From Kineothrix sp. IPX-CK (GTDB lineage Bacteria > Bacillota > Clostridia > Lachnospirales > Lachnospiraceae): a stretch of 64,000 bases of DNA. Of the stretch, positions 20,099-29,367 are shown piece by piece. A program made the position numbers and the translations under genes. The first letter of the stretch is position 1. Every line of letters starts with the position of its first letter. The stretch is taken from positions 3,224,001-3,288,000 of the forward strand of contig NZ_CP146256.1 in NCBI RefSeq assembly GCF_039134705.1, given 5' to 3'. The notes beneath the pieces were generated by a model that ran no database searches, was not told where the DNA came from, and saw only the letters and a program-made list of their open reading frames with translations.

Positions 20099-20130
20099 AA
20101 TATGATAATCTTTAAATATGATAATCTTCA
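20099..20130. repeat. 16-bp tandem duplication at the nifH-like stop codon
   Basis: AATATGATAATCTTTA is followed directly by AATATGATAATCTTCA (14 of 16 bases identical). The second unit encodes the last residues of the NifH-like protein and the first repeats them beyond the stop codon, so the duplication is silent. Confidence 0.7.
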
Positions 20131-20969
20131 ATGGCATCCATAAGCCCGTGCTCCATAAGAATCTCCTCCAAACGCTCCTGAGACATCGGTTTGGGAATCG
20201 TGAACATCGTATTTTCATCGATCGCCTTCGCAAGAGCGCGATACTCCTGCGCCTGCTTTACCTCAGGACTGTATTCGATCACTGTCTTCCGGTGAATCTC
20301 CGCACGCTGCACCACATTGTCGCGGGGGACAAAATATATGAGCTGAGTACCGAGCTCCTCGGCAAAAGCCTTAAGCAACTCCAGCTCTCTGTCCACGTTA
20401 CGGCTGTTGCAGATGATTCCGCCGATGCGCACCCCGCCGGTTCTCGCATACTTTGCGATTCCCTTGGAAATATTGTTGGCAGCATAGAGCGCCATCATTT
20501 CGCCGCTGGCCACGATGTAAATCTCCTTTGCCTTTCCCTCTCTGATCGGCATCGCGAAACCGCCGCACACTACATCTCCCAGAACGTCATAAAAAACATA
20601 ATCCAAATCGTCCGTATATGCGCCCAGCCTCTCCAGCAAACCTATGGATGTAATGATTCCTCGGCCGGCACATCCGACTCCGGGTTCAGGCCCGCCGGAT
20701 TCCACGCATTTCGTTCCATGGAATCCTATGCGCATGATATTGGAAAGCTCCGTAGAATCCCCACTCGTGCGCAAGGTATCAAGCACCGTCTTCTGCGCAA
20801 GTCCGCCCAGAAGCAGTCTGGTAGAATCGGCTTTCGGATCGCAGCCTACTACCATAACGTTCTTCCCGCTTTCTGCAAGACCTGCCGTTAAATTCTGTGT
20901 GGTGGTTGATTTTCCGATGCCACCCTTGCCGTAAATGGCAATCTGTCTTAGTTGTTTTTTTTCTGACAT
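20112..20969 (-). CDS. NifH-like nitrogenase-type reductase (Fe protein)
   Basis: Homodimeric ATP-dependent electron donor to the D/K proteins, 285 aa. The P-loop is [10 protein letters not shown] (13-22). The two 4Fe-4S ligands are C100 ([12 protein letters not shown]) and C135 ([15 protein letters not shown]), matching C97 and C132 of Azotobacter NifH; R103 corresponds to the arginine that can be ADP-ribosylated. Switch residues ([10 protein letters not shown]) are intact. It is the last gene of the sulfur operon, 12 nt after the ABC ATPase gene, rather than beside the D/K genes. Placement suggests methylthio-alkane-reductase-like (MarH) rather than nitrogen fixation: no NifE, NifN or NifV is present. 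A canonical role cannot be excluded from this protein alone. Confidence 0.88.
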
Positions 20970-20981
20970 GACATAATCTCC

Positions 20982-26545: not shown

Positions 26546-26557
26546 CTTTCTTCCTCC

Positions 26558-27895
26558 TTACCGATACGTTGACAGTACCCTGTCATAAATATCTTCAATG
26601 ACTCTGAGACCGCCGGAGAAACCTGCGTAATTTGTCGTAAGCACAAGCCGGTAGGGCGTAGGCACTGCTGCAGACAGAAAATCATAGTCCTTTTCCTTCG
26701 CAAGCTCCTTATCCCATCCGCTTCCTATGATCAAGCCTCTTCCCTGATGGCTGAGGGCGCGTATCGCATCCTGAACCTTACCTGCATCCGGTTCGAAGGT
26801 GAGCGGAATCTCACGTTTCTCCGAAGTACTTCTAAGCTCCGTCACTATCTGTTCCTTGAACTTTTCGGGTGTGTTATCCGTAATAAACTGCTCCTTAGGA
26901 ACAATACCGACCTCATGGAGCAAGAATTTGGAAAGTCCCACCACATATCCTGCATCGTGCAGAATATGTACATGGTTCGGAAGTCCATAGCGGAATTCCA
27001 ACAGGAAAGTAGCAAGATTATCAATTTCCTCATAATAGGCCTCTCTCTCCTTCTTTATGAATTCCTCCGCCGTCTCCTCGTCTATCTGGCTCCCCTGCCC
27101 CTTTGCGAAGTCAATGACCTGGCGCAGAAAACGCTCCGTTTCATTGGCCCCTATCGGTACGTTTGGAAAGCGCGTAAAGGGCTGTTCATATATATCTTCC
27201 AAATGCTCTACAATGGGAAGTCCGTACCAGGGCGACACGAGAATGTTGAAATTCGCTCTGGGAATCCTCTTCCATTCCTCCACCCCCTCAGACTGCGGTC
27301 CGAAAAGAATATGTACCTTTAATCCGATTCCCTCCAAAAGCCTCTTATATTCTCTCAAATTCCCCTTCCAGAAAGGGTCCTGGTAGGGAAGGGAAGCAAA
27401 AAGATTTACTGTATTTTTCTCGCTGCGCGCCGGATTCTCATCCTCAAATTTACTGACATACTGGTCGAGGATCGCGTTCACTACAAGGCTGTGTGATTCA
27501 AAATTACTGCATTTGAATCCTGCCGTTTCCACGGATACGATAGGCTTCCCCAAATCCCTGAATTCATCTGCCAGAGATTCCACATCGTCGCCTACAATAC
27601 CGGCCGTACATCCTGTCAGAATCACCTGCAAGTCGGTATCCAGCACCTTATACGTATTGGATACGATTTCCCTTAAGCGTTCCATCCCCCCGAATACAAC
27701 CTCTTTCTCGCTGAAATTCGTACACGGAGAAGTATTTCCTCCCGCATAACCCGTGGAGCGCTCGAAAAACCCCTGTATCATATTGCCGCAGCCGGGACCG
27801 GAATGAAGAATCGGCACGGCCTTTGGAATAGCTACCACACTTTGCAGTGCGCCGATGGCGCAGGTATAACGTTCCTGTTCGATGATTCCGCTCAC
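26558..27895 (-). CDS. NifK-like beta subunit of a nitrogenase-like reductase
   Basis: Oxidoreductase/nitrogenase component 1 family, 445 aa. Candidate P-cluster ligands are C12 (ERYTCAIGA), C36 (LHSGPGCGN) and C96 (LTGCTAGIVGDDV), in the expected order and spacing. It is shorter than true NifK (about 520 aa) and lacks the long N-terminal extension. It overlaps the D-like gene by 4 nt (ATGA), so the two are made together. With the D-like subunit it would form a heterotetramer that receives electrons from the NifH-like protein. Assignment to the Mar-like group is by gene context. Confidence 0.87.
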   Translation of the reverse strand: MSGIIEQERYTCAIGALQSVVAIPKAVPILHSGPGCGNMIQGFFERSTGYAGGNTSPCTNFSEKEVVFGGMERLREIVSNTYKVLDTDLQVILTGCTAGIVGDDVESLADEFRDLGKPIVSVETAGFKCSNFESHSLVVNAILDQYVSKFEDENPARSEKNTVNLFASLPYQDPFWKGNLREYKRLLEGIGLKVHILFGPQSEGVEEWKRIPRANFNILVSPWYGLPIVEHLEDIYEQPFTRFPNVPIGANETERFLRQVIDFAKGQGSQIDEETAEEFIKKEREAYYEEIDNLATFLLEFRYGLPNHVHILHDAGYVVGLSKFLLHEVGIVPKEQFITDNTPEKFKEQIVTELRSTSEKREIPLTFEPDAGKVQDAIRALSHQGRGLIIGSGWDKELAKEKDYDFLSAAVPTPYRLVLTTNYAGFSGGLRVIEDIYDRVLSTYR

Positions 27896-29367
27896 TGCAC
27901 ATTACCTCCTTCTAAAAAAGTATACGGTTCCTGCTGCAGCCACCATTTCGTATAGGGATTGATGGCATGCTTCTCAAGATTCTTAACAAACTCGTTATTT
28001 TCTAATGTTTCTACGATGCGCTCTCCGTAGCGCACGATTCCTTCATAACCCATGCTGTAATGTTCATCTCCGACAAGCAGTGACGGAATTCCCAGCTTCG
28101 CTCCCCAAAGTGTCATACCTCCGTGCCTTGCCAGCAAGACATCCGGCTGTAAGCGGTTCAGCATATTTACCAGTTCAAATTCCTGCTTATTACATATGTT
28201 GAAATTGGGAACATCGCCATAATCTTTTACCCGCTGCGCCAGCAAATCGCCTTCCTCGCTGCCGCTGTCATAAAGAGGGTCATGGTGGAAGATAGCAGCT
28301 CCTTTTGCCTTCATTCCCAGCTCGCCCAGCAAGGACAAAAGCGCATGGCCATGAGCTGCTCCAGCCGTCACATAAGCTGATTTTCCTTTCAGCTTCTGCC
28401 GCAGTTCTTCTATTCTGGGAAGGTATTCCTCTTTTTTGTCAGCGATCAGCCGCTGCGCTTCTTCCTCTTTATGAAGGATTTTTCCAAGTTCTCTGAACCA
28501 GCGGTCCGTTTGGGCTATGCCGTAAGGCGGAGCCGTCTTAATCTCCGGGACGCCGAATTCCTGCTCCAGAGCAGCTCCCAGATAGGAACCCAAGGTCGGA
28601 CAAATTTGAATGGTTGCCGCAGCTTCGGAGGCTCTGGATAAGTCCTCTACAGTGGAATAGGGAGTGATATACCGGGGTTTTACCCCGAAGGCTTCAAACC
28701 AGTCTTTAAAAATATCGGAACCCCAGAAATTGATGACGTTCACGATATCATCTCTCTTTTCTCTGGCAGGTTTTATGAGCTTTCTCGCAATGCCGTGATA
28801 GCTGGCGTCAAAGCCGGTAGTCCATACCTTGGAACGGAAGCCTTCACAGAAAATAGCTACCACAGGAACACCCAGCTCCTCCTCAGCCTCATTGCACACG
28901 CTTTCCACGTCATCGCCGATGATTCCGGCAGCGCAGGTAGTCAATACGAACACAGCGTTAGGGTGCGTTCTTTCATAAACCTCCCGGATACCTTCAGCTA
29001 ATTTCTGTCCCCCTCCGTAAACGGTATCCGTTTCCTGAAGATTGGTGGAAAAAACCTTGCGCTGTGTCGGATTCTCAACACCGCGAAGGGGAGAATTCAC
29101 CCTATAAGTAAATGCGAACTCATGAAAGCAGGATGAGCAGCCTACCGGCCCATGGCTGATAACAGCCGCATCCTGAACTAAAATAACCATACATGCCGCC
29201 TGCGATGTGGAGCATCCAAGACACTGGGAAAAAGATCTGCTTTTATCCCTTAGTCCGCACCGGGAGCTTTTTACCAGTTCCTCTGCGCCCCCCTGAAAGC
29301 CCGTAATGGAACCCAGGCGTATTTCCCTGATCGATACCTCCGGTATCTGTAAATCTATGTTTCCCAT
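27892..29367 (-). CDS. NifD-like alpha (catalytic) subunit of a nitrogenase-like reductase
   Basis: Nitrogenase component 1 family, 491 aa. By eye, C52 (QCLGCSTSQ), C77 (HGPVGCSS) and C145 (TTCAAGIIGDD) align with P-cluster ligands C62, C88 and C154 of Azotobacter NifD. C256 (TIQICPTLGSYLG) aligns with cofactor ligand C275. The cofactor ligand H442 (in YHGYDGF) aligns with M439 in YSMGYEGI, so that ligand appears to be missing, although H436 is close. A NifB-derived cluster held differently from FeMo-co is therefore likely. Position is first in the nitrogenase-like block, 25 nt after a GNAT gene. The substrate may be an alkyl methyl thioether, as for methylthio-alkane reductase (inference). 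Confidence 0.86.
   Translation of the reverse strand: MGNIDLQIPEVSIREIRLGSITGFQGGAEELVKSSRCGLRDKSRSFSQCLGCSTSQAACMVILVQDAAVISHGPVGCSSCFHEFAFTYRVNSPLRGVENPTQRKVFSTNLQETDTVYGGGQKLAEGIREVYERTHPNAVFVLTTCAAGIIGDDVESVCNEAEEELGVPVVAIFCEGFRSKVWTTGFDASYHGIARKLIKPAREKRDDIVNVINFWGSDIFKDWFEAFGVKPRYITPYSTVEDLSRASEAAATIQICPTLGSYLGAALEQEFGVPEIKTAPPYGIAQTDRWFRELGKILHKEEEAQRLIADKKEEYLPRIEELRQKLKGKSAYVTAGAAHGHALLSLLGELGMKAKGAAIFHHDPLYDSGSEEGDLLAQRVKDYGDVPNFNICNKQEFELVNMLNRLQPDVLLARHGGMTLWGAKLGIPSLLVGDEHYSMGYEGIVRYGERIVETLENNEFVKNLEKHAINPYTKWWLQQEPYTFLEGGNVQ

Follow-up and report, generated by a model that had tools for sequence, protein, structure and literature searches.

The best-characterized relative of the enzymes considered here is the methylthio-alkane reductase (Mar) of Rhodospirillum rubrum, an enzyme that converts methylthio-alkanes to methanethiol and a hydrocarbon and the structure of which has been solved (9FMG). 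In the accessible text of PMC12552129, the cluster of MarD is contacted by Cys270, His429 and Arg428; Cys73/Gln74, Trp195 and Phe199 replace the N2-essential nitrogenase residues Val70, Gln191 and His195; His194 and His375 lie near the S2B site; and the purified enzyme reduces acetylene but not 15N2. A second relative, Isr of R. capsulatus, pairs BHDK with SsuCAB for isethionate, and its IsrD retains a single P-cluster Cys and lacks both ligands of the cofactor (PMC11423573). A third group is already named in print as Nfa, or group IV-A, and the available parts of PMC10418091 call its genes MarHDK-like and link them to sulfur gene clusters. Here we analyse an operon of this third group in a stretch of 64,000 nucleotides (the window) from Kineothrix sp. 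IPX-CK, the genome of which is a single contig of 4,723,253 bp. The operon spans 40058–20112 on the minus strand in the order metN, metI, an insertion sequence (IS), metQ, MccB-like, MccA-like, DUF4418, FtsX, ABC, metY1, GNAT, D, K, nifX, nifB, metY2, substrate-binding protein (SBP), permease, ATPase and nifH. Its genes from D to nifH are long unbroken open reading frames (ORFs) with strong family matches. Judged from sequence, we consider it likely that the system is a nitrogenase-like C–S bond reductase of the Nfa clade, sister to Mar.

An earlier note on the window had described clustered NifD-, NifK-, NifX-, NifB- and NifH-like genes, and these are present as intact minus-strand ORFs at the positions it gave. 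The SsuABC-type importer that it placed in the operon is also there (SBP, permease and ATPase, 23890–20982), as are the two interleaved O-acetylhomoserine sulfhydrylases (MetY), but MetY1 (31205–29877) lies just beyond 29367, where the note ended the system. Its statement that NifE and NifN are missing from the window holds, as PF00148 matches only D and K there.

Among solved structures, D matches MarD best (449 bits; next different protein, 141.5), with ~43% identity and the cluster ligands kept, and K matches MarK best (396.6 bits; next, 57.4). Neither subunit reaches the cut-off of any NCBIfam model. A NifEN maturase was rejected: the best NCBIfam model for D is nifE, at 185.8 bits against a cut-off of 505.1, and MarD is far closer. 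A BchNB/BchYZ/CfbD-type enzyme was likewise rejected, with no match above a family cut-off. Comparison with Vnf and Anf was made by profile and PDB scores, and comparison with Isr by its published description (PMC11423573).

Relatives were collected in one scan of named genome contigs, which gave at least 80 loci. D was placed in a tree of 92 rows, leaving out host duplicate loci and D proteins of fewer than 430 amino acids (aa), among them L054 and L058, and in a careful tree of 55 hand-picked rows; K proteins of fewer than 400 aa were left out of the K tree. The clade rows include near-identical genomes (for example, L016 and L022), L014 and L126 are, to judge by length, one contig of R. sufflavum, and L088 is counted twice among the Mar loci. 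The D trees contain three clades: A, the window type, which holds Clostridia, Treponema, Synergistetes and Endomicrobium, including E. proavitum Nfa and Acetivibrio thermocellus; B, with Paenibacillus, Sporomusa, Butyrivibrio and Coriobacteriales; and C, which is Mar and contains R. rubrum. Support in the careful D tree is 100/100 for A, 99/97 for B, 100/100 for Mar and 91/90 for A + B, and the K tree is concordant (A, 100/100; Mar, 84/90; B, 79/79). In both the D and K trees, clade A and Mar are separate, each on one side of a branch. Host NifD and NifE branch far from window D, so the placement within true Nif that the note had named as fatal to its proposal was not found. The proposal itself, a Mar-like system, was right in that Mar is the nearest characterized enzyme, with the same cluster ligands, and in that the operon is a sulfur operon with importer and MetY; it went too far in that D and K fall outside the Mar clade, in the sister clade with the E. 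proavitum enzyme.

A match to D at E ≤ 1e-60 occurs in 18 of 293 sampled genomes of the class that the host shares with Acetivibrio (host included), with at least 71% identity in six of these, and in none of the 12 other genomes listed from the same family, which makes the gene patchy. Two unusual loci were seen in the scan. In an archaeal metagenome-assembled genome (MAG) of Candidatus Methanoplasma (L080), a Mar-clade D lies within a 1050-aa frame, possibly a fusion or a frame artefact, which was trimmed to its last 510 residues for the D tree. Sporomusa sp. KB1 (L111–L114, G006:C1:2888309-2972575) carries 18 nitrogenase-component-1 domains in 84 kb, as varied D/K pairs interspersed with SsuABC-type, CysK and MetY genes.

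Alignment to MarD places the P-cluster ligands of window D at Cys52, Cys77 and Cys145, the [Fe8S9C] ligand positions at Cys256 and His415, together with Arg414, and the pocket at Cys59, Met60, Val181, Trp182, Phe186 and His361. Six P-cluster Cys residues are present across D and K, and those of K are kept in 32 of 32 clade A proteins. In MarD numbering, the equivalents of Cys270, Arg428, His429, Cys73, Trp195, Phe199 and His375 are kept in all 50 clade A and B D proteins (window included). Two positions differ. Position 194 is His in every one of the 33 Mar proteins, whereas all 50 proteins of clades A and B have Val, Met or Ile there. Position 74 is Gln in all 16 clade B proteins and in all but one of the 33 Mar proteins, and Met or Thr in 29 of 34 from clade A. 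Window D has Val181 and Met60 in place of His194 and Gln74, and E. proavitum D departs from the Mar pattern at these two positions alone. The sister clade looks like one in which a Mar-type cluster sits in a different pocket.

The gene context was tallied with window genes as queries and with bit thresholds that we set, so that importers of other types would be missed. Of the 34 clade A loci, window included, 28 have a MetY, MetB, CysK or MetQ gene within ~11.5 kb of D. These comprise all 21 loci that are flanked by 15 kb or more; at the six that lack such a gene, the flanks are short (1.8 to 13.4 kb). Among loci with flanks of 15 kb or more, the counts are 7 of 9 for clade B (11 of 16 overall) and 10 of 20 for Mar (14 of 32), and no such gene was found at seven nif control loci, one just 6.3 kb long, the component-1 genes of which match host NifD, NifK and NifE best. 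Where the flank reaches 15 kb, an SsuABC-type importer is found at 9 of 21 loci in clade A, 4 of 9 in clade B and 0 of 20 in Mar (10 of 34, 5 of 16 and 1 of 32 overall). Because volatile Mar substrates should need no importer, its presence hints at a non-volatile substrate.

These distributions bear on whether the operon encodes an ordinary Mar that acts on the R. rubrum substrates (2-methylthioethanol, dimethyl sulfide and ethyl methyl sulfide), the difference in clade being neutral. Such an enzyme would be a sub-case of the C–S bond reductase, and the odds of the two overlap. The identity to MarD, the retained ligands, the MetY neighbour and the many clade A loci without an importer would all suit it; set against them are the invariant difference at position 194, the importer counts for Mar and for clades A and B, and the occurrence of both types on some contigs. 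We think an ordinary Mar unlikely, although it deserves to be kept in mind. Contigs L027 and L061 each carry a clade A or B pair plus a Mar-clade pair, which suggests different jobs for the two types. Within the C–S bond reductase reading, we lean towards a substrate other than those of Mar.

An imported substrate could instead be a sulfonate, cleaved at its C–S bond to sulfite by an IsrBHDK-like reductase. The SsuABC-type importer in the operon and the equivalent pairing in R. capsulatus (PMC11423573) are what such an enzyme would call for, but window D, unlike IsrD (PMC11423573), keeps three P-cluster Cys residues and both Mar-type ligands. Moreover, of six carriers searched for siroheme sulfite reductase (PF01077), A. 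thermocellus gave one match and the other five, including the window genome and E. proavitum, gave none; 11 of 14 control genomes contain the family. The lack of a match in these five carriers argues against sulfite as the product, and an Isr-like reaction would be a dead end there. MetY and MccAB, in turn, use thiols or sulfide, not sulfite. We therefore judge a sulfonate reductase very unlikely.

In A. thermocellus (genome of 3,843,301 bp), a clade A pair is the sole PF00148 pair, and its operon has the gene order of the window bar the extra MetY1 of the latter. This conserved order, from the MccB-like gene to NifH, indicates that the cluster is not a chance arrangement, and an artefact or contamination was rejected from the single contig and the synteny. 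The number of genes from CysK to H fits the locus tags Cthe_1560, Cthe_1565, Cthe_1569 and Cthe_1573 as they appear in the available parts of PMC3478167, PMC4236516 and PMC4676874. In the accessible text of PMC4676874, and also of PMC8209448, acetylene reduction by A. thermocellus is not repressed by ammonia and N2 fixation was not detected. Acetylene reduction without N2 fixation would be expected of an organism whose sole enzyme of this kind is Mar-like, as Mar does likewise. E. proavitum (contig of 1,588,979 bp) has a clade A pair as the only two PF00148 domains of its genome, in the order MetY, SBP, permease, ATPase, D, K, MetQ remnant, NifX, MetB, CysK, NifB, NifX and H.

Several points weigh against a C–S bond reductase, and four of them would instead favour a true N2-fixing 'group IV nitrogenase', perhaps one that uses [Fe8S9C] on both N2 and C–S bonds. 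First, E. proavitum, with D and K of the same clade (D 67% identical) as its only pair, is reported to be diazotrophic (PMC9147875 and PMC11257099) and to incorporate 15N2 with only these genes (PMC9147875, PMC8399215 and PMC11257099), in each case second-hand, as these papers relay the work of Zheng (2016). Second, NifEN and NifB with bound L-cluster reduce N2, in vitro and in vivo (PMC13245594). Third, window H belongs to the canonical NifH lineage, unlike the H of E. proavitum and of alphaproteobacterial Mar operons. Fourth, Cthe_1565 and Cthe_1560 fall in a 17-gene cluster of A. thermocellus genes that are mostly up-regulated by ethanol and include urea-use genes (PMC3478167, from the part available), which is a hint of nitrogen control. 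In addition, fewer than half of the clade A loci have the importer, and the IS between the leader and metNI on one side and metQ on the other makes expression of the operon in the window strain uncertain. Finally, host NifD also has His in the His429 column, though no Arg at 428, so this His alone does not discriminate; the loop at that column differs according to the accessible text of PMC12552129, so the distinction between Mar and NifD is carried by Arg428 and positions 195 and 199.

Other evidence makes N2 fixation quite unlikely in our view. At the N2-essential positions, host NifD, used as a control, has Val, Gln and His, whereas window, E. proavitum and Mar proteins have Cys, Trp and Phe, and Mar, with the same residues, cannot reduce 15N2 in the available text of PMC12552129. 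Sulfur genes are present at every clade A locus with enough flank, A. thermocellus carries this pair only and has been tested for N2 fixation with the negative result cited above, and the host carries a canonical nif cluster apart from the operon, with four PF00148 domains at C1:1456697-1462287, nifH and an 880-aa NifN-B-type frame. The nifEN genes that the note had listed, together with diazotrophic growth, as contrary evidence are thus in the host genome, outside the window. The note had also listed placement in a clade of other demonstrated function, and the E. proavitum enzyme, being reported as a nitrogenase, formally touches this point; for the reasons given here, we treat that report as the weaker evidence. 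If the window system is a C–S bond reductase, the E. proavitum 'group IV nitrogenase' would be the same sulfur enzyme, a re-reading that we did not find in the open literature searched. A third nitrogenase-like H/D/K set was found in the host at ~C1:734.1-737.3 kb; its proteins (249, 430 and 435 aa; locus L104, C1:733.4-738.4 kb) are very divergent and directly follow an ABC ATPase of the iron-siderophore/cobalamin type.

The H tree has two lineages, with H of E. proavitum and of alphaproteobacterial Mar operons in one. Window H belongs to a group (88/92, below the starred level) inside the canonical NifH lineage that also holds 27 further H proteins, most of them from operons of this kind. 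Members of this lineage also occur at some Mar-clade loci (Selenomonas and Prevotellaceae), and both lineages are found within clade A and within Mar. With a Mar-type catalytic part and a NifH-type reductase, the operon would be annotated as a nitrogenase by nifH alone.

From the observed gene content, synteny, clade, ligand conservation, context statistics, candidate leaders and shared operator-like motif, we infer the type of cluster, the chemistry, the substrate and the product of the C–S bond reductase as follows. NifB, with NifX, would build an [Fe8S9C] cluster without molybdenum or homocitrate, and this cluster would be seated in D by Cys256 and His415. NifH and ATP would pass electrons to it through the P-cluster at the D/K interface. 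The SsuABC-type importer would bring in an organosulfur compound, the C–S bond of which the cluster would cleave reductively to release a small thiol; within this scheme the thiol is probably methanethiol. MetY would then convert the thiol and O-acetylhomoserine to methionine, and the MccA/MccB-like pair would convert homocysteine to cysteine, a step that MccB/MccA enzymes perform and that is needed when sulfur enters as methionine. The NifB-like protein has no NifX domain, NifX being a separate gene in the operon, and carries HPC, CNILCRFC, RPG, AGPGD, TVTVN and CQRCRADAAG, which we take to be the characteristic NifB motifs. The broader proposal is that the whole Nfa clade, including E. proavitum, consists of dedicated sulfur-acquisition [Fe8S9C] reductases with a non-Mar pocket, an imported non-volatile methylthio substrate and sulfur control through a shared operator (with leader attenuation in several members); we see the chances for and against it as evenly balanced.

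A shared motif and candidate leaders point to control of these operons by sulfur supply. A perfect-palindrome scan of five upstream regions found nothing common to all five, but inspection by eye led to AAACATATATGAA, a 13-base motif chosen from the window and A. thermocellus sequences and searched for with one mismatch allowed. The 40 clade A loci hold 22 matches to it, where shuffling predicts 2.0, and 16 of the 22 are outside its two source loci. Clade B has 4 matches (0.8 expected), Mar has 3 (1.1 expected) and the seven nif loci have none (0.3 expected). The matches in L010, L014 and L020 lie 8 to 36 bases from a gene start and may be ribosome-binding sequence. E. proavitum (L101) has three copies, 117 bases before MetY and 88 and 29 before NifX, and an Endomicrobium MAG has two, before CysK and before D. 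The motif is found before sulfur and nfa genes of both Elusimicrobia and Clostridia (L101 at 4475, 12439 and 12498; L028 at 3776 and 4903; L128 at 3594, 3660, 8211 and 8279). A candidate binder is an IscR/CymR-like Rrf2 regulator, with scores under the cut-offs, at 44067–43621 in the window; such a regulator also adjoins the A. thermocellus operon.

The candidate leader peptide of the window is MQNRTVAVNRIIRTSIGMQCCCISCCAMQKYNFSGG. In the window, as in A. thermocellus and A. clariflavus, a short ORF rich in Cys and Met lies ahead of metN; in R. sufflavum and in two MAGs (Synergistaceae and Christensenellaceae) one lies ahead of D or MetY. Terminator-like hairpins fold after five of these ORFs. 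At a threshold relaxed after the window leader had narrowly failed, so that the window hit is not independent, leader-like ORFs were found in 13 of 344 clade A upstream regions against 0.5 expected, which become 9 in 7 organisms once two inside metI and two L014 repeats are removed; the regions upstream of Mar (129), clade B (106) and nif-locus (25) genes had none. The stricter scan found four in clade A (of 211; two on the same contig), one each in clade B (of 78) and Mar (of 166), and none at nif loci (of 28). Scanned against Rfam, neither the window nor the E. proavitum locus gave a family at the gathering threshold, and thus no SAM riboswitch or T-box, and a link to operon expression was sought in PMC5209896 and not found there. 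Cys/Met-rich short ORFs that lie within or close to clusters of sulfur genes in several phyla, at L009 8454, L014 9826, L015 6672, L102 7376 and L128 2913, are candidate leader peptides and may belong to a wider regulatory class.

Table 1. Operon genes and upstream elements in the window, with model scores where available
Feature	Position	Strand	Remarks
NifH-type Fe protein	20112..20969	−	TIGR01287 456.7 bits, above cut-off 394.35
ABC importer ATPase	20982..21890	−	best models SaoA, nitrate and taurine, all under cut-off
ABC importer permease	21764..22804	−	best models nitrate NtrB, SaoP and TauC, all under cut-off
ABC importer substrate-binding lipoprotein, SsuA/NMT1 family	22835..23890	−	under SsuA cut-off
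MetY2, O-acetylhomoserine sulfhydrylase family	23908..25263	−	464.7 bits, under TIGR01326 cut-off 495.1
NifB-like radical SAM cluster synthase	25336..26211	−	279.5 bits, under TIGR01290 cut-off 343.65
NifX-type cofactor carrier	26216..26545	−	PF02579 75.3 bits; NCBIfam nifX 61.1, under cut-off 112
K subunit, MarK-like beta chain	26558..27895	−	445 aa; P-cluster Cys12, Cys36, Cys96
D subunit, NfaD/MarD-like catalytic alpha chain	27892..29367	−	491 aa; residues by alignment to MarD positions
GNAT acetyltransferase	29393..29917	−	immediately ahead of D in A. thermocellus too
MetY1, O-acetylhomoserine sulfhydrylase family	29877..31205	−	460.3 bits, under cut-off 495.1
ABC ATPase, FtsX-type permease and DUF4418 protein	31220..33623	−	syntenic in A. 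thermocellus
MccA-like cystathionine beta-synthase/cysteine synthase	33616..34527	−	338.9 and 336.5 bits, both under cut-offs
MccB-like cystathionine gamma-lyase/homocysteine desulfhydrase	34524..35681	−	559.2 bits, cut-off 594
MetQ-like lipoprotein	35714..36742	−	signal peptide begins near 36646, just past the IS end
Insertion sequence	36653..38449		transposase ORF 37055-38335 (+); splits metI from metQ
MetI, methionine importer	38471-39181	−	PF00528
MetN, methionine importer	39228-40058	−	named from sequence and position only
Terminator-like hairpin then U run, downstream of leader	40250..40279	−	−23.7 kcal/mol, z −9.06
Candidate leader peptide, Cys/Met cluster	40311..40421	−	7 Cys/Met in 36 residues
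Operator-like motif	40587..40599	−	ahead of metN; also before metB in A. thermocellus

The D and K ORFs overlap by 4 bases, MetY2 and MetY1 are 54% identical, and the true start of the importer ATPase is probably near 21764. The IS has a second, identical copy at 51006–52802, both being 1797 bp long with the same 426-aa transposase. The ABC ATPase/FtsX/DUF4418 trio is kept in the operon in A. thermocellus and others. Downstream of nifH, at 18051–19571, lies a gene for a RACo-like corrinoid reductive activator (2Fe–2S and ASKHA); it was rejected as a member of the system, as no other locus displayed bears this label. The protein may serve to reactivate MetH, the MetH-type frame of the host being only 841 aa.

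For about a decade, the report on E. proavitum has served as the cited evidence that a group IV enzyme may fix N2 in the absence of NifEN. Given the same sulfur operon around its enzyme, that report now calls for a direct test, and the syntenic counterpart in A. thermocellus, a genetically workable thermophile, makes the question experimentally simple. If correct, the sulfur function would explain the old observation of ammonium-insensitive acetylene reduction by A. thermocellus, and some 'nifH-positive' anaerobes would have been wrongly counted as diazotrophs. The result bears on nifH-based surveys, on the release of hydrocarbons and methanethiol by rumen and termite-gut bacteria, and on the role of large iron–sulfur–carbide clusters before N2 fixation.

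Compared with known systems, the operon shares its group name and its sulfur and methionine context with the group IV-A genes near non-selenium mlp clusters described in the accessible parts of PMC10418091, A. thermocellus included. It differs from them in that no mlp methylcorrinoid cluster was found in the host genome with PF02607; one B12-binding_2 domain is present, in the MetH-type frame. With IsrBHDK it shares the BHDK set, SsuABC-type import and sulfur assimilation, whereas IsrD lacks two P-cluster Cys residues and the cofactor ligands and the Isr product is sulfite. The A. thermocellus operon (Cthe_1560–Cthe_1573) differs in that metNIQ and Rrf2 are divergently placed and a single MetY lies beside D/K. 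E. proavitum NfaBHDK belongs to the same clade (D 67% and K 66% identical) and comes with the same MetY, importer, MetB, CysK, NifX, NifB and H genes, but it was published as nitrogen-fixing, has an H of the group IV lineage and one MetY, and follows another gene order. R. rubrum Mar (9FMG) has in common with the window system the BHDK set, the six P-cluster Cys residues, the Cys and Arg–His contacts, Trp195, Phe199 and His375, and the use of sulfur. The window system departs from Mar in its separate clade, in Val rather than His at position 194 and Met rather than Gln at position 74, and in its SsuABC-type importer, NifH-lineage H, MccAB-like pair, metNIQ and NifX.

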